Assembly: GCA_021161465.1 (NCBI GenBank)
Contig: JAGHAM010000029.1
Coordinates: 1-12,776, forward strand
Direction of reading: 5' to 3'
Length of the DNA stretch: 12,776 nucleotides
Source: Candidatus Iainarchaeum sp.
GTDB taxonomy: Archaea > B1Sed10-29 > WALL01 > JAGHAM01
A program made the position numbers and the translations under genes. Below are positions 2,067 to 12,615 of this stretch, one piece after another (position 1 is the first letter of the stretch; each line of letters starts with the position of its first letter). The notes under the pieces were generated by a model that saw only the letters and a program-made list of their open reading frames with translations, searched no databases and was not told the origin of the DNA.

Positions 2067-2076
2067 CTATTCTAAG
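2045..2076. repeat. 32-bp imperfect direct repeat, copy 1 (3' end of relE)
   Basis: Read on the reverse strand this is CTTAGAATAGCATCCATCTC and onward. It matches copy 2 at 2668-2699 in 27 of 32 positions, and all five differences are transitions. It contains the relE stop codon and its last Leu-Glu codons. Weaker similarity continues for about another 10-40 bases toward lower coordinates, including GCCCCT versus GCTCCT and a shared CTACCA. Confidence 0.7.
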
Positions 2077-2345
2077 AATGCGTACCCTTTGCCCCTGTGA
2101 ATTATTTCAGTGACTTTGACTTCTTTTCCTGTGACTGCATAGATGACTCGGTAGTTTCCCACCCTCAGGCGGTGAAGAACAGGGTCTTGAGCACCCCTTA
2201 GTTTCTTTATGTCTGCTCCACTCCTTGATTTGAAAGGCTCTTTTTCTAGCCTTCCTAACTTGTTCTTTATCCTTTTTTGTGTTGTGCTATCTAGCACTTT
2301 TAATTCTTTCAGAGCGGTTCTTGACAGAAGAACTTTATACTTCAC
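2067..2345 (-). CDS. relE: RelE-family mRNA interferase toxin
   Basis: This 92-aa protein is a typical archaeal RelE/ParE-superfamily toxin. It begins YKVLLSRTALKELKVLD, continues with a basic helical middle, then the family core KKLRG...LHRLRVGNYRVIYAV (about residues 47-68) and the C-terminal VTEIIHRGKGYAF. The basic and aromatic residues R59, R61, Y65, R66 and the H/R-G-K tail correspond to positions used by RelE toxins to cut mRNA in the ribosomal A site. The start is taken as the GTG at 2345, which overlaps the antitoxin gene by 11 nt; the TTG just upstream (2348) is equally spaced from a GAGGAG site. The longer frame up to 2393 would only add out-of-frame antitoxin sequence. Translational coupling with the antitoxin is likely. 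The last codons lie inside a direct repeat. Confidence 0.85.
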   Translation of the reverse strand: MKYKVLLSRTALKELKVLDSTTQKRIKNKLGRLEKEPFKSRSGADIKKLRGAQDPVLHRLRVGNYRVIYAVTGKEVKVTEIIHRGKGYAFLE

Positions 2346-2514
2346 CAAGTGGAACGAACTCCTCTTCGTCGAGTATTCTCTTCTGTCTATCATAGAACAG
2401 CTGTCTTCGGGCCAGTCTGTATAGCCTGTTGATTATTTCGTCGTAGGTCTCATCTTTTCGACCTATTTCTTTCAAGAGTTGTTGGGTTTCTTTCGTTACT
2501 GCTACTGTAGTCAT
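2335..2514 (-). CDS. relB: RelB-like antitoxin
   Basis: This 59-aa ORF starts MTTVAVTKETQQLLKEIGRK and continues DETYDEIINRLYRLARRQL, then ends in an acidic tail (DEEEFVPLGEV). The pattern is that of archaeal ribbon-helix-helix-like antitoxins paired with RelE: an N-terminal beta strand (TTVAV), a first helix, then the K-x-E-T-Y-D-E-I-I helix. The C-terminal part would wrap the toxin. The ATG at 2514 follows GGTGAGGG closely. Its stop (TAA, 2335-2337) overlaps the start of relE, the usual antitoxin-first order. It was found by translating the sequence upstream of relE. Expression is probably autorepressed through the 17-bp palindrome just upstream. Confidence 0.85.
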   Translation of the reverse strand: MTTVAVTKETQQLLKEIGRKDETYDEIINRLYRLARRQLFYDRQKRILDEEEFVPLGEV

Positions 2515-4827: not shown

Positions 4828-5646
4828 ATGGAAGGGGCAAACAGGCTGGAAGAAGCTAAGAAGCGTGAAGAAAGGATAAAGCAAAACTTATCAAAGATAA
4901 AGCATAAGCTGGTCGTTATAAGTGGCAAAGGCGGGGTTGGAAAGACAACTGTTGCTATCAATCTTGCTTGTGGTCTTGTGAATAAAGGGTTCAAAGTTGG
5001 CGTGCTTGATATAGACTTTCATGGCCCAAATGTCCCGAAGATGCTTGGGGTTGAAGGCAAGCAACCTTTGGTATCTAACTCTATCCTGGAGCCAGTGGAG
5101 GCAATACCTGGTCTGAAAGTGATGAGTCTTGCCTTGTTGTCAAACAATCCAGACCAGCCAGTCATCTGGAGAGGACCCTTAAAGAACGTAGCTATCAAGC
5201 AGTTACTTGGGGATGTAAATTGGGGCGAGCTAGACTTTTTGGTCATAGATTCACCACCTGGTACTGGCGATGAGCCACTTGGTGTTTTCCAGACGATTTC
5301 TGGCTTGGATGGGACCATCATAGTTACAACTCCACAGGAAGTTGCTCTGATGGATGCTAGAAAGGCAATAGGCTTTTCCAGGGAGCTTAATGTTCCTGTC
5401 GTTGGAGTGATAGAAAACATGAGTGGTTTGATATGTCCACACTGCGGAAAAGAGATACAACTGTTTAAGGCAGGTGGAGGGGAAAAACTTGCTAAGGAGT
5501 TTAAGGTGGCCTTCCTTGGCAGGATACCATTGGACCCGAAGATAGTTGAGAACAGCGACTCAGGCAAACTGTCATGTTTAGGAGACTCAAGAACATCCAA
5601 GTTCCTACAAGAAGTCGTGGATAATATCCTAGAGAGAGTCCCCTAA
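4828..5646 (+). CDS. mrp: Mrp/NBP35-family Fe-S carrier ATPase
   Basis: This 272-aa P-loop NTPase carries the deviant Walker A of the MinD/Mrp group, GKGGVGKTT at residues 33-41. It also has [14 protein letters not shown] (61-74), DSPPGTGDE at 141-149 and [10 protein letters not shown] at 167-176, all hallmarks of Mrp/ApbC/NBP35. A C-x-x-C pair (C203, C206) in ICPHCG is the site that holds a bridging Fe-S cluster between two subunits. The protein is thought to bind and hand Fe-S clusters to target enzymes in the cytoplasm. The N-terminal 25 residues form a charged helix without the four-cysteine motif of eukaryotic NBP35. It faces the suf cluster, and its last 18 nt overlap the end of sufB on the other strand. 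The leaderless start is supported by the TATA box. Confidence 0.93.
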
Positions 5647-6540
5647 GAAACCATTCACTATTAAGTTTATCACTTCTTTCTCGGTTAGGCCTCTGCTCCT
5701 AAGATAATTCATTTCATATTCAGATATCCTTCCTATGGATGCTTCATGACTCATCACAGCATCTTTGTTTTTGTCTACAATTTCTGGGATGAATGTTATC
5801 GATGAGTCTTTGTCAATCAGCATACCCTGGCAATCAAGGTGGCCTTTTCCAGCGCCTTCTGCAACCACTTTACTGTGGGCTATCACGTTGCTACTCTTGT
5901 TTGCCACTAATCTTAATCTCACAATACCTGTTGCATCATCGCCCTTAAGATGGATTACATCACTGGTTTCAAGCTTGGAGTTAATGGCATTTGCAATGAT
6001 ATTTAGGTTGGCACTTGAGCCCTTATCCCCATAGACAGTGGTTTTCATGTTTAATCTCTTTGGTGGAGAAGTGCTTTTGTAGTAATAGTCAAGCTTTGCA
6101 TCCTTTTTTAGATAGAATTCATAGTCCGGCTCAACGAAGTCATCTCGCCCCCAGCTGTGAATACTTTTGTAGTCAAGCTTTGCCCCCCTCTTCACTATAA
6201 TTTTTCCAGTTGCATAGTGTCTTGCACACAGATTCTTTGCAAGCGCGCTGCATGCTGAGAGCATAGTTACCTTCAGACCTTCTTCCACCACCAACAGGTT
6301 TGTCATTTGCTGTGATACTTTCTTCGTTGCAGCAGTTACACAACTTGATATTGGCATTTTTGGTTGTTTCTTCACCCACAAGAAGTATCCCTCTTTGGGC
6401 CTTTTTTTAATCTCCTTCCTTACCCAAGCATATCTACCAAAGGCTTCCTCTATCTTTAGCAGTTCAATTCCAACGTCAGCGAAGGCTTTCTTCAGCTCAT
6501 GGTCAACTAGATCGTACTCTGCACTTTTTGCATTTTTCAT
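5629..6540 (-). CDS. sufB: SufB/SufD-family Fe-S scaffold subunit (minimal type)
   Basis: This 303-aa protein is a short SufB/SufD homologue of the kind found in minimal archaeal Suf (SMS-type) systems; bacterial SufB is near 490 aa. The C-terminal block is well conserved: [10 protein letters not shown] (234-243) places C237 at the position of the E. coli SufB scaffold cysteine (C405). [21 protein letters not shown] (264-284) carries the H265-E266 pair corresponding to H433-E434, and VNGF closes the fold. The middle should form the beta-helix. With SufC it would build Fe-S clusters in the cytoplasm. The ATG at 6540 is chosen because GAGGT lies six bases upstream; ATGs at 6546 and 6582 are in frame but worse placed. 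It overlaps sufC by 38 nt, so translation is probably coupled. Confidence 0.88.
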
Positions 6541-7237
6541 ATCCATACCTCTTGATAGTCCTCCATACAGTTTTCCAGTCATCTGAGGTGCAAATTATTT
6601 TGCCGTTTATCATTACATGTATTTTCTCTGGTTTTAGGAAGCGCAGTATCTCCCCATTATGTGTTATGACTAGGGCAGATGCGTTCTCTTTGTTCAGCAT
6701 TTGTTTTGAGTATGATGTGAGGGTTTTAACTTTTTCTATGTCAAGCCCCGAATCCAATTCATCGAATATTATCAACTTTGGCTTAAGTGAAAAAACCTGC
6801 ATCAGTTCTGATAATTTTTTCTCTCCTCCAGATAAACCTTTATTCAGTTCTCTTTTCAGCAGGTGCTCCCCACTTATACCATCATCCAAACCAGTATTTG
6901 AAATCCTATTTAGCAGGTCACCTAGCTTGACATTTTTTACAACTGGCGGGTTCTGGAAGGCGAGCGCGATGCCGGTCTTGGCCCTTCCCTCTGGGGGCAG
7001 TTTTGTCAGGTCTTTCTTGTTTAGATATATCCTACCTTTTGTTACCTTGTACTCTGGTATCCCCATTATAGCATATGCAAGTGTAGACTTGCCGCTTGCA
7101 TTTGGTCCAAGGAGGGCATGCACTTCGCCTTTTCCTATGTCTAAGTCCACACCCCTCAACACTTCCTTGTCGTCTACACTTACGTGCAAATCCTTAATGC
7201 TTAACGTTGTGTTCACCTTCTTTGCATGGTTCTGCAT
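6503..7237 (-). CDS. sufC: SufC ABC-type ATPase
   Basis: This 244-aa ABC ATPase has all motifs: Walker A GPNASGKST (44-52), Q-loop Q95 in AFQNPP, signature LSGGEKK (135-141), Walker B LIIFDELDSGLD (155-166) and H193 in ITHN. The LDSGLD and AFQNPP forms are those of SufC rather than of transport ABC proteins. It would power conformational change in the SufB scaffold. The tail (residues 230-244) is very basic and holds an extra C-x-x-C (C236, C239). The start is uncertain: the ATG at 7237 has no ribosome site, while an in-frame GTG at 7216 lies closer to where the family begins (SIKDLHV). Both starts lie inside the end of the nifX-like gene. Confidence 0.92.
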   Translation of the reverse strand: MQNHAKKVNTTLSIKDLHVSVDDKEVLRGVDLDIGKGEVHALLGPNASGKSTLAYAIMGIPEYKVTKGRIYLNKKDLTKLPPEGRAKTGIALAFQNPPVVKNVKLGDLLNRISNTGLDDGISGEHLLKRELNKGLSGGEKKLSELMQVFSLKPKLIIFDELDSGLDIEKVKTLTSYSKQMLNKENASALVITHNGEILRFLKPEKIHVMINGKIICTSDDWKTVWRTIKRYGYEKCKKCRVRSS

Positions 7238-7562
7238 TGTTTATCTTACCGGAGAGTATGTCCTCTAGAACATCCTTGATAGTGTTATCGATACCAGTTA
7301 TTGGAGTTACACCTAGCTTTTTAAACCACTCCAGTGCACGGGGGCCCATCCCACCAGCAACCATAATATCAACGTTTTGCTTTGCTATGAACTCCGGAAC
7401 CTTTCCTGGTTCGTGGTTTTCAAGGAATGGGTTCTTTTTGGTCTCTATTTTTACATGTCCCTCCTCCACATCTACAATTATGAAGAAGTTGCACCTGCCA
7501 AAATGGTTTGCTATCTTAGCTTCAAGACCTTTGTTTTCGTCTGATGAAAATGCGATTCTCAT
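7194..7562 (-). CDS. NifX/NafY-like dinitrogenase cofactor-family protein (MTH1175 type)
   Basis: This 122-aa protein has the single small domain shared by NifX, NafY and the C-terminus of NifB. It opens MRIAFSSDE, followed by HFGRCNFFIIVD (20-31) and IMVAGGMGPRALEWFKKLGV (66-85), then a Cys/His-containing end (C113, H118, H122). Stand-alone archaeal members are not nitrogenase proteins. They are thought to bind metal clusters or Fe-S/Mo intermediates and often sit beside Mrp-type ATPases, as here. GGTGA six bases before the ATG, with a T/A-rich box near 7592-7606, supports this start. It is first in the nifX-like > sufC > sufB cluster and overlaps sufC by up to 44 nt. The real substrate is unknown. 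Confidence 0.85.
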   Translation of the reverse strand: MRIAFSSDENKGLEAKIANHFGRCNFFIIVDVEEGHVKIETKKNPFLENHEPGKVPEFIAKQNVDIMVAGGMGPRALEWFKKLGVTPITGIDNTIKDVLEDILSGKINNAEPCKEGEHNVKH

Positions 7563-7647
7563 GAACTGTCACCGGGTTTTTATTTTTAGATGTTAAAATT
7601 TAAAAAAGCATTTAAATAACCTAGTAATAAATAATGGGAGGGTACGT
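7563..7647. promoter_or_regulatory. Divergent promoter region, nifX-suf cluster and MscS-peptidase operon
   Basis: The 85 bases are very A/T rich. Forward TATA-like boxes lie at about 7598-7606 (AATTTAAAAAAG) and 7611-7619 (TTTAAATAA), with GGGAGGG five bases before the forward ATG. Reverse TTTTTAAATTTTAAC (7592-7606) fits the nifX-like gene. Which forward box is used is not clear. Confidence 0.45.
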
Positions 7648-9144
7648 ATGGTTGAGTTTTTACAGGGAATTCAGATGACTCCAGAGATTTTAAAGGCTTT
7701 CTGGGTACTGGCTATAATCATAGCAGGGTTTGGGATAACCGGACTTTTCAATAAGTTAACGTCAGGAATGGTGAGAAAGCGGAGCTTTTCAAGAGTTTTA
7801 GTAAAGGCAATAGAATATCTTCTTATTATTGGCACAATCTTCGTTGCAGTTTATGTTTATGACCCTTTACTTCAATCCTCCTTAATGACTAGTTTGGCAG
7901 TTTATGGACCTGTGTTGCTATCGGCAATTCTTGTGTTTGTGCTTGGTATTGCTGTTGTTAATCTATTCATTGAGCTTCTGGAGATGTTTTTCGCAGGAAT
8001 ACGTTTTAAGGCTTATCTGCGGCACATCGGTTTTGATGAGTCTATCCTAAAATTGTCGTTCCTCATGCTAAAGCTTTTCCTTTACCTTATAGTGCTCCAG
8101 GTGTCACTTGCCCAGTTTAGCATACCAAAAAGCTCCATAGACACCCTTATATCAGCTGTTAGCTATGGATTGGCGTTCCTTATAATCGCGCTTATTTTCT
8201 TTGGCTTGAAGGACTCTACAAAAAGCTGGTTTGCTGGCCTTTATCTGAATTCATCCAGACTGTTGAAAGTTGGTCAAAGAATATTTGTGGATGATGCAGA
8301 TGGCGAGGTAGTTGGGATTGAACCATTATTTACTATCGTTGATACCGGGAAAGGATATTACATATCTATACCAAACTCAAGGCTGCTTGATGGCTATATC
8401 AGGATAAAGAAATCCCGGTTTGATTTGAAGACACTAGAATCAATGAGGAGGCATTACGTTGCACAGGAGGCGTCATATTGTGTGCCGGCAGTTTTAGATA
8501 TGATGCTAATGCTATTTGGTTTCCCGGTCAAGGGTGGGCAGGATGCCATAGCCAAGGCTGCCGAGACTAAAATCCCTGGTGGAACCGAGGTTAATAAGGC
8601 ACTGAAGGCCGTGTCTAAATTGACAAAGAATGAGGTCAAAGGTCTCTTTGTACCGTACAAGGAGATATTGAATTTAAGGGATGAAGTTAAGGCGTGGCTG
8701 TCCGAAGGCGGTCTAGTTGTGTTGAATTTCTATAAGGCGATGCTGTTTCCTGGTGTTAAGAAAGACCAGAAGCATGCTGTCTTGTGCATCGGTGTTGAAG
8801 GTGATGAGCTCCTGATAATTGACCCTAACAAGGAGACTGGTGGCGTTTACCTTGTTAACTACAAAGATATGGAGAGAGCAATGGGCCCAATAGAAGGTGC
8901 TGAGAGGGGTTATGTTGCTTATGCCCCACGTGGCACAAAGGCTTATTGGAGAGTGAAGAACAAGCTTGTATACTCAAACCCAATACATTATGATGAGCTA
9001 AGCAAGGGTATAGAAAGAAAATTAAAGCAGATATTCAGGGAGTCAAAACTAGTTAAAGATGTGTTTCCAGAGTATGTGAGGGAATTCCTGGATGAGTTTA
9101 AGACTGCAGAGTCCGAAAAGATACAAAGGTTGTGGAAACCATGA
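7648..9144 (+). CDS. MscS-like channel fused to a C39-like cysteine peptidase domain
   Basis: This 498-aa protein has two parts. Residues 1-260 are MscS-like. Hydrophobic helices lie near 16-34, 55-72, 86-112, 138-157 and 168-187, and the MscS beta-domain follows (WFAGLYLNSSRLLKVGQRIF at 194-213, VGIEPLFTIVDT, IPNSRLLDGYIRIKKS). Residues 264-430 resemble peptidase family C39 or a papain-like fold: Q273 and C278 in YVAQEASYCVPA (oxyanion and nucleophile), H376 in KKDQKHAVLCIGV, and D392 in LLIIDPN. A charged helical tail (430-498) follows. The peptidase part would be cytoplasmic, so membrane tension or osmotic state could control proteolysis. The start follows GGGAGGG. The stop overlaps the RimK-like gene by ATGA, implying joint action. 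The closest known designs place C39 domains on ABC exporters, not on channels. The substrate is unknown. Confidence 0.82.
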   Translation: MVEFLQGIQMTPEILKAFWVLAIIIAGFGITGLFNKLTSGMVRKRSFSRVLVKAIEYLLIIGTIFVAVYVYDPLLQSSLMTSLAVYGPVLLSAILVFVLGIAVVNLFIELLEMFFAGIRFKAYLRHIGFDESILKLSFLMLKLFLYLIVLQVSLAQFSIPKSSIDTLISAVSYGLAFLIIALIFFGLKDSTKSWFAGLYLNSSRLLKVGQRIFVDDADGEVVGIEPLFTIVDTGKGYYISIPNSRLLDGYIRIKKSRFDLKTLESMRRHYVAQEASYCVPAVLDMMLMLFGFPVKGGQDAIAKAAETKIPGGTEVNKALKAVSKLTKNEVKGLFVPYKEILNLRDEVKAWLSEGGLVVLNFYKAMLFPGVKKDQKHAVLCIGVEGDELLIIDPNKETGGVYLVNYKDMERAMGPIEGAERGYVAYAPRGTKAYWRVKNKLVYSNPIHYDELSKGIERKLKQIFRESKLVKDVFPEYVREFLDEFKTAESEKIQRLWKP

Positions 9145-10103: not shown

Positions 10104-10128
10104 AGGATATAATATCACTAGATATCCT
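10104..10128 (-). terminator. Inverted repeat between convergent genes, possible terminator
   Basis: AGGATAT (10104-10110) and ATATCCT (10122-10128) form a 7-bp stem with an 11-nt loop, directly after the retropepsin stop and 85 bases past the RimK-like stop. It may serve either convergent gene. There is no strong T-tract. Confidence 0.3.
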
Positions 10129-10484
10129 TAAACAATCTCTGGTGGCTTACCACCTTTGGATATGTCTATCACAAAGTTGTTATAGATTATGTCTCGTCCT
10201 ATGAGGACTTTGCATTTTGAATGTTCTCTTTTGCTCAAGGTTGCTTCTGTTTCATAGGTTTTACCTAATATGTGGATTTTGACTTTCACCACCCCTCGCT
10301 TCTGCCCAGGCGAGAGCGCACTGTGTATTTTTTTATGCTTTATTATTGGACCGAGTTCAGCCTTTTTAGCTAGTTCCAGGTCTATGCTGGTTCTGGCCGC
10401 GCCAGTGTCAAACTTTGCCATAGCACTTACTTTTTTCTTCCCACAGACAACAACTGGTTCAACGAGTCCAACAACTTCTTTCAT
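10128..10484 (-). CDS. RimB-like retropepsin-fold protein ('ATP-dependent zinc protease' family)
   Basis: This 118-aa protein belongs to the retropepsin-like family often encoded beside rimK. It shows KFDTGAARTSID (24-35), where D26-T-G-A is the aspartic protease motif, then H88, and VLIGRDIIYNNF (93-104), the usual hydrophobic-hydrophobic-G partner of the active site, with the family's R-D. Active enzymes are dimers with one Asp from each chain. The length is that of a single retropepsin domain. In bacterial Rim systems the RimB member antagonises or trims RimK products. The gene converges on the RimK-like gene and is not in its operon. The start is supported by a TTTTTTTAAG box about 28 bases upstream, with no Shine-Dalgarno, so the transcript is likely leaderless. 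Confidence 0.85.
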   Translation of the reverse strand: MKEVVGLVEPVVVCGKKKVSAMAKFDTGAARTSIDLELAKKAELGPIIKHKKIHSALSPGQKRGVVKVKIHILGKTYETEATLSKREHSKCKVLIGRDIIYNNFVIDISKGGKPPEIV

Positions 10485-12063: not shown

Positions 12064-12615
12064 ATGATGGAATCTTATGAGGGGACATATGGGGAAAAGA
12101 AGGAAACAGCAGGTCAGACCAAGAGAGAGGAGGAAATTGCCCTGGCAGTACTGATAGGGTTATTGGTAGTTGCTTTGTTTGTCTTGTTTGATGCTTTTTC
12201 TTTGGCATTATCACATGATGAAGGAGTTCAAGAGCAGCACGCAGCTCAAGTGCCGAATACTGCGAATGCTAGCATTGATTTGGCCTCTTCTTATTGTAAG
12301 AAACAGGGTTATCAACTGAGCTCTGGGAGTGGCCCTGGTGAGGCAGTTTGTGTGTTTCCTGATGGGTCAAAATGTGAGGTATTGGCGTTTTTCCGCGGTA
12401 GTTGCCAATACCCTAAGAATAAGTGTACGGATATATCCCCTGCTAGTAATGCTCCTGCTCTAACTGGCAAGGAGCTTGATAAAGGGTGGTATTTCGGTTC
12501 ATGCAACCAGAAGAAAAAGAACACTCCTGGTGATTGGGCCCATCTGATGGAAGGCACTAGGAGTGCTATGTGGTATAGGCCAAGCAATGAAACAGGAGTA
12601 TCGTGTGATTGTTGA
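12064..12615 (+). CDS. Membrane-anchored DUF333-like cysteine-rich protein
   Basis: This 183-aa protein has a charged N-terminus (1-24), one membrane helix (about 25-48) and an outward-facing domain by the positive-inside rule. Residues 70-114 match the DUF333 pattern: ASSYCKKQGYQL, then AVCVFPDGSKCEVLAFFRGSC. In this family an asparagine, proline or serine lead is followed by a cysteine, then C-x-F-x-D-G-S-x-C and an aromatic-x-x-G-x-C end. The rest (115-183) has four more cysteines (C121, C147, C181, C183), so eight in all, which suggests disulphides outside the cell. The function is unknown; DUF333 proteins in bacteria are called putative hemolysins without firm proof. Two adjacent ATGs (12064, 12067) are possible starts. 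It is downstream of mgtE with its own likely promoter. Confidence 0.7.
   Translation: MMESYEGTYGEKKETAGQTKREEEIALAVLIGLLVVALFVLFDAFSLALSHDEGVQEQHAAQVPNTANASIDLASSYCKKQGYQLSSGSGPGEAVCVFPDGSKCEVLAFFRGSCQYPKNKCTDISPASNAPALTGKELDKGWYFGSCNQKKKNTPGDWAHLMEGTRSAMWYRPSNETGVSCDC

Follow-up and report, generated by a model that had tools for sequence, protein, structure and literature searches.

An MscS-type channel fused to a papain-like cysteine peptidase and accompanied by a RimK-type ligase in DPANN archaea

What would a channel of the MscS type do with a cysteine peptidase domain in the same chain? The question is raised by one gene in a 12,776-nucleotide stretch of Candidatus Iainarchaeum sp. (contig JAGHAM010000029.1; hereafter the window), which an earlier note had read as an MscS-like channel carrying a C39-like peptidase that osmotic or membrane stress might switch. 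MscS channels and papain-like peptidases are each well studied, and their combination in one chain is new in the literature searched. No description of such a fusion was found there, although an earlier mention in the amidoligase survey of Iyer et al. (2009) is possible, and the 2023 census of papain-like proteinases makes no mention of MscS (PMC10318531). The answer to which the analysis leads is that the protein may be a membrane-anchored amide hydrolase working with a RimK-type ligase on an MscS-type scaffold, a statement that we believe about as readily as we doubt it. The whole looks like a membrane-tethered make-and-break pair in tiny archaea, mostly from very salty places. The features on which the argument is built are collected in Table 1.

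Table 1. Coordinates and supporting evidence for the features of the locus, in window numbering.
Feature	Position	Strand	Evidence
MscS-type channel + papain-like (C39/C83-type) cysteine peptidase fusion	7648..9144	+	Intact ORF, 498 aa
Membrane part, residues 12-203, five helices	7681..8256	+	AF2 secondary structure, hydropathy, loop charges
MscS beta-domain, about residues 204-254	8257..8409	+	PF00924; Foldseek to MscS/YnaI
Papain-like peptidase domain, residues 257-430	8416..8937	+	Gln273 (oxyanion), Cys278 (catalytic), His376, Asp392, Arg420
C-terminal tail, conserved, residues 431-498 (WRxKxxLxY...SKxxExxL...RxW)	8938..9141	+	Alignments; low model confidence
RimK-type ATP-grasp amide ligase, 292 aa	9141..10019	+	PF08443, TIGR00768; K/D/E/N intact
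RimB/RloA-type (PF05618) retropepsin-like aspartic peptidase	10128..10484	-	FDTGA motif; convergent with ligase

Elsewhere in the window, positions 4828-7562 encode an Mrp/NBP35-like ATPase (+), a SufB/D core protein (-), a SufC-like ABC ATPase (-), and a dinitrogenase FeMo-co domain protein (-), a cluster that looks like a small Fe-S assembly locus. A 108-aa ORF at 2067-2393 (-) resembles a putative RelE/ParE-type toxin, and a membrane-anchored DUF333 protein (PF03891, E 5.6e-8) is encoded at 12064-12615 (+), adjoining the gene of an MgtE magnesium transporter.

The first part of the protein is the MscS membrane and beta-domain that the earlier note had recognized. The Pfam profile of the MscS beta-domain, PF00924, matches residues 190-248 (E 5.5e-8, 33.3 bits against a cut-off of 20.2), and as expected for the MscS superfamily, the beta-domain directly follows the last transmembrane helix. 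In the Foldseek list of the full-length model, MscS and YnaI structures come first, at probability 1.00, followed by Alr0975, the C39 domain of ComA, and PeiR. Past the beta-domain, Pfam yields no match other than C39_2. The alpha/beta vestibule domain of canonical E. coli MscS is absent, and in the AF2 models its position is occupied from residue 257 on by the papain-like domain. The full-length model (pLDDT 75, pTM 0.45) is weak on domain arrangement and usable per domain only. Loop charges give the orientation: loop 33-49 contains five K/R and no D/E, loop 109-135 has four K/R and four D/E, and neither loop 76-89 nor the N-terminus holds any K/R, so that the beta-domain and peptidase would face the cytoplasm. 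Over most of the tail, the pLDDT is 40-64. The last 8-20 residues of the fusion protein in loci L050, L051, L052, L053, L054, L055, L058, L067, and L073 form an acidic extension with a common LDEF/LNEF-type motif (e.g. LDEFIDDN, LDEFTDTDE), possibly a docking motif or a glutamylation acceptor. This motif is missing from the window's clade, whose fusion proteins end with RLWKP.

An assembly or frameshift artefact was considered and rejected, as the same fusion is present in 34 further distinct loci from several DPANN phyla. A search of 198 archaeal genomes recovered 14 further full-length fusions, and GTDB genomes scanned for two peptide patterns, which divergent relatives may escape, gave 30 loci. 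All of the scan loci come from records named as DPANN or unplaced archaea (Diapherotrites, Micrarchaeota, Aenigmatarchaeota, Nanohaloarchaeota, and a single Woesearchaeota), and once duplicates are set aside, 35 distinct fusion proteins remain, window included. The gene occurs in four of the 19 genomes from the window's own phylum, and it was not found in the phylum of genome G026, a small sample of five genomes. Nanohaloarchaeota carry it in 25 of 28 genomes, and in 11 of the 12 of good quality. These organisms are obligate halophiles, and the near-universal presence of the gene among them suggests that it is probably important for tiny halophiles. Hypersaline water is the habitat of Nanohaloarchaea (PMC10266531). 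This distribution also bears on the idea that the fusion is accidental, with an osmotic valve and a housekeeping peptidase sharing one chain and no mechanistic coupling between them. The pTM of the model, from which little can be learned about domain arrangement, leaves some room for this, but the same junction and the same partner gene recur across deeply diverged lineages and throughout most of the Nanohaloarchaeota, so we consider it highly improbable.

The second part of the protein belongs to clan CA, with a predicted papain-like fold and with Gln, Cys, His, and Asp following each other in the expected order. Residues 273, 278, 376, and 392 are exactly those that had been pointed out beforehand (the Cys278 codon is at 8479-8481), and the peptidase span of 260-430 first given for the domain was accurate. 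In the window protein, Peptidase_C39_2 is matched weakly at residues 270-394 (E 0.034, 15.1 bits, cut-off 24), and the scores recorded for family C39 (PF03412 / PF13529), 15.1 and 17.2 bits, are below the cut-off of 24. The family shows that this weak match is no chance result. At E values of up to 1, C39_2 (PF13529) matches 34 of the 35 family members (best 9.1e-13), the C39 profile matches 29 (best 4.8e-9), and the phytochelatin synthase profile PF05023 matches 20 (best 1.9e-6), the window protein not being one of these last. A separate model of the C-terminal part, built with 35 sequences, has a pLDDT of 83, with a core above 90. When this predicted domain is aligned using VIA-align, its closest counterpart is PeiR (C71; Z 18.9, rmsd 1.9 over 147 residues, 18% identity), followed by Alr0975 (C83; Z 16.7, rmsd 2.8, 159 residues), the C39 domain of ComA (Z 16.2, rmsd 2.1, 137 residues), and the peptidase domain of PCAT1 (Z ~16). 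Z scores of 16-19 to C71, C83, and C39 enzymes thus agree with the papain-like fold first proposed. Staphopains and other clan CA proteases are poorer matches (Z ~12), and classical C1 papains are absent among the structural matches listed, from which their exclusion does not follow. In a profile search, the Alr0975 entries are the sole solved sequence relatives below an E value of 0.001 (E 6e-4). On these models, the domain is papain-like and sits in the C39/C83/C71 neighbourhood, without being C39 proper. The term "C39-like" is right as to the fold, the kind of peptidase, and the complete site, but it is too narrow, because the structures of phytochelatin synthase (C83) and PeiR (C71) resemble the domain at least as closely. 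The Alr0975 alignment spans the region from the Q-C motif to the arginine of "KTRGF", and R420 falls on that arginine. Numbered from Gln64 (PMC3855540), the "KTRGF" arginine would be residue 232. Arg232 of NsPCS may be a substrate-binding residue, the R420-R232 correspondence being one of alignment only.

Conservation of the active site indicates in which lineages the domain is likely to be an enzyme. Q273, C278, H376, and D392 are complete in 26 of the 35 homologues, from several named phyla. The nine exceptions make up a single Nanohaloarchaeal clade (bootstrap 98, SH-aLRT 96), and the loss corresponds to one change on the tree, compared with about eight when labels are shuffled. The expectation that C278 and H376 would be kept therefore holds for all close homologues and fails in this one distant clade. 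The intact set conserves 67 positions, and only seven of these have largely disappeared from the nine proteins, namely Q273, C278, P280, G312, H376, G385, and R420. D392 is retained in all 35 proteins, and in the nine the membrane part, beta-domain, and tail are still conserved. This joint loss of Q, C, H, and R420, and of little else, argues that the site is under selection as an active site, and the pattern in the nine looks like the release of one. In the intact lineages, the domain is very probably a working amide hydrolase. Since in the nine the operon persists although the active site is dead, catalysis is dispensable in some lineages, which speaks against our main reading. The same clade is a ready natural control for parting the channel function from that of the enzyme.

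These nine proteins speak for another explanation, by which the papain-like domain would serve chiefly to bind a ligand or as a scaffold, gating the channel when the ligase product binds, with catalysis secondary or lost. They lack Q, C, and H, yet the domain is still there with its fold-defining residues (D392 without exception), and so is the operon. Precedents exist in HlyB, whose inactive C39-like domain binds cargo, and in RloB, which bears an inactive transglutaminase domain (PMC12239564). The second ligase described below is degenerate in 25 loci, so inactive enzyme copies are tolerated or used in this family. However, the complete site spans several phyla while its loss is confined to one clade, and binding alone would not keep Q273, C278, H376, and R420 invariant in all the others. 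We find this explanation unlikely.

The earlier note missed the gene context, which consists of a RimK-type ligase partner and a RimB/RloA-type retropepsin. In the window, the ligase gene begins within the end of the channel gene, their start and stop codons sharing an ATGA. The ligase fits the RimK family profile (PF08443 E 3.7e-42; TIGR00768 179.7 bits, above the cut-off of 143.4), has the ATP/Mg residues of the family, and is the only RimK match in this genome. A same-strand ligase with intact K, D, E, and N is found within the next genes in 33 of the 34 loci that have downstream sequence (L064, which ends at a contig edge, is left out of this count). In the Woesearchaeota locus L072, there is no recognizable ligase beside the fusion gene. 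The upstream neighbours vary by lineage, so the constant unit is the fusion gene plus the ligase. In 25 loci, the channel gene is separated from the intact ligase by a degenerate ligase copy, in which some of the K, D, E, and N residues are replaced. These ATP-grasp copies (L049, at 7355-8173; the gene at +1 in L050, L054, L056, L059, L066, and others) are perhaps conserved pseudo-enzymes that act as a regulatory subunit, and the one that was scanned gave no Pfam match at E 0.01. In L049, L056, L070, and other Nanohaloarchaeal loci, translation GTPase-like and S6e-like genes are upstream of the channel-ligase cassette and PIN-like and RpoE'-like genes are downstream (all named by sequence look only), as if the cassette had been inserted into a conserved archaeal cluster. 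An ancestral role in ribosomal S6-type modification was rejected. To our knowledge archaea lack bacterial S6, and the translation genes beside the Nanohaloarchaeal loci differ from the neighbours in other lineages.

Some neighbourhoods recall glutathione synthesis. A GCS2 gene (glutamate-cysteine ligase family) is found within three genes of the fusion in seven loci from two lineages. In such a pathway, GCS2 and the ATP-grasp ligase would make gamma-glutamyl peptides, on which the domain, like phytochelatin synthase (C83), would act as a deglycylase or transpeptidase. The channel would respond to such thiols or to adducts of them, in the manner of Kef systems. The Alr0975 relationship, which extends to R420, is consistent with this, and so is the gene list published for cultivated nanohaloarchaea, where an MscS (SVXNc_0867) and, separately, "GshAB" (SVXNc_0869-70) are reported (PMC10266531). 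Judged by tag order alone, SVXNc_0867-0870 fits the fusion operon, with the degenerate ligase as 0868, in which case the parts would already have been noticed in print and the fusion would not. Nevertheless, GCS2 has no match in the window genome and is not found nearby in 28 of the 35 loci. Lys206 and Tyr207 of NsPCS have no evident counterparts in the fusion domain, and the best structural match is PeiR rather than a C83 enzyme. These points make the pathway quite unlikely.

The structural match to the ComA and PCAT1 peptidase domains could instead point to an export device in which the peptidases process a ligase-made or leader-bearing peptide that then exits via the MscS-type pore. Export by such a pore has a precedent, as the MscS-type MscCG of Corynebacterium exports glutamate. 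But the fusion protein has no ABC part, the clustered neighbourhoods show neither an ABC part nor a conserved small precursor gene, the constant neighbour is the ligase, and small solutes are what MscS pores pass. Classical C39 exporter processing was rejected because of the missing ABC part and precursor, and we hold export in this wider sense to be very unlikely.

The retropepsin adds a second hydrolase to the locus. It has the DTG motif and matches PF05618 with 37.1 bits (cut-off 27), while the NCBIfam matches to RloA3 (E 2.7e-7, 30.4 bits vs 210) and RimB (E 5.9e-6, 26.2 bits vs 200) are below the equivalog cut-offs. The gene is in the same place in the three closest loci, which gives four in the window's clade. 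Without the channel, a PF05618 retropepsin adjoins RimK in four other archaeal loci (L086, L087, L088, and L090), and on haloarchaeal plasmids a retropepsin match lies inside the gene annotated as a RimK-type ligase. These pairs and fusions suggest a recurrent writer-eraser pair, which is joined here by the channel-peptidase. RimB both removes the poly-glutamate made by RimK and stimulates RimK (PMC11957791). On the haloarchaeal plasmid of L093 (NZ_CP085305.1, 203356-206663), the RimK-annotated gene that contains a retropepsin match adjoins genes of the succinylglutamate desuccinylase/aspartoacylase and glutamate-cysteine ligase families, apparently another ligase-plus-hydrolase set in a halophile.

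A model can be proposed in which these components work together. With a constant RimK-type ligase and a RimB/RloA-type retropepsin close by, the system is more suggestive of a small amide or peptide product than of the general sensor-protease first imagined. The ligase would join an amino acid (glutamate, following the RimK precedent) to a carboxylate of a small molecule, a peptide, or a protein tail. The peptidase of the fusion would then cleave the resulting amide bond or trim the product, and in the window's clade the retropepsin would be a second eraser. We lean slightly toward the view that the domain acts on the product of the ligase or on something that the ligase modifies. MscS subunits assemble into rings, so one pore probably has several peptidase domains beneath it, and by analogy it is fairly likely that the channel forms a ring whose cytoplasmic cage consists of the peptidases. 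The activity of the peptidase would change, or the product would be let out, when hypo-osmotic stress opens the channel or when the ligase product binds. Control of the peptidase by tension or channel state is conceivable, though we doubt it somewhat. The complete "chanzyme", an MscS ring and peptidase cage in which a RimK-made product is broken down or released under the direct control of tension or a ligand, is proposed only tentatively. In addition to the dead-site clade, points against the amide-hydrolase reading are the lack of a recognizable ligase in L072, the lack of bacterial S6 in archaea and of a GCS2 match in the window genome, and the weakness of the full-length model on domain arrangement. 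If the coupling is true, the protein would be a prokaryotic mechanosensitive enzyme-channel, and a one-protein link between osmotic stress and covalent peptide metabolism.

Comparison with known systems shows which parts are shared and which are new. As in MscS and YnaI, transmembrane helices lead into a beta-domain that PF00924 detects above its cut-off, but the fusion has five helices and a papain-like peptidase in place of the cytoplasmic alpha/beta domain. With the C39 domains of ComA, PCAT1, and HlyB it shares the fold, the Q-x(4)-C and H...D layout, and the anchoring of a cytoplasmic peptidase to the membrane. In family C39, the domain is N-terminal on an ABC exporter and cleaves double-glycine leaders, whereas this one is C-terminal on a channel. 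Alr0975, a primitive phytochelatin synthase, shares the Q/C/H/D residues, the aligned arginine, and the fold. The fusion protein differs from it by its membrane part, by the two NsPCS residues without evident counterpart, and by a genome without GCS2. PeiR, a pseudomurein endoisopeptidase, gives the highest structural score, although fold alone does not show function, and it acts on cell walls, which would require an extracellular domain, whereas the fusion peptidase is placed in the cytoplasm.

Likenesses in plan are found among ligase-retropepsin systems. RimB-RimK of Pseudomonas and the archaeal RimK-retropepsin pairs and fusions have no MscS-peptidase partner, and the RpsF substrate is absent in archaea, but as in the window, a RimK-type ligase stands beside a PF05618 retropepsin. 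The rlo operon of Pseudomonas aeruginosa (RloA, RloB, and RloC) combines a membrane protein that bears an enzyme-like domain with an ATP-grasp enzyme and a retropepsin (PMC12239564). Without the three retropepsins, mutants are unable to grow when exposed to hypo-osmotic stress, a defect that disappears when RloB or RloC is lost (PMC12239564). RloB is a periplasmic inactive transglutaminase on seven transmembrane helices, without MscS (PMC12239564), whereas the DPANN protein has an MscS part and a cytoplasmic domain whose site is mostly intact. RloA is secreted, whereas no signal peptide is evident in the window peptidase. The likeness between rlo and the DPANN locus is one of parts and plan, and we make no claim that the membrane proteins are homologous. 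If the proposed coupling is true, the poorly understood Rim/Rlo osmotic-stress systems would gain an archaeal relative, in which the sensor is joined to the eraser.
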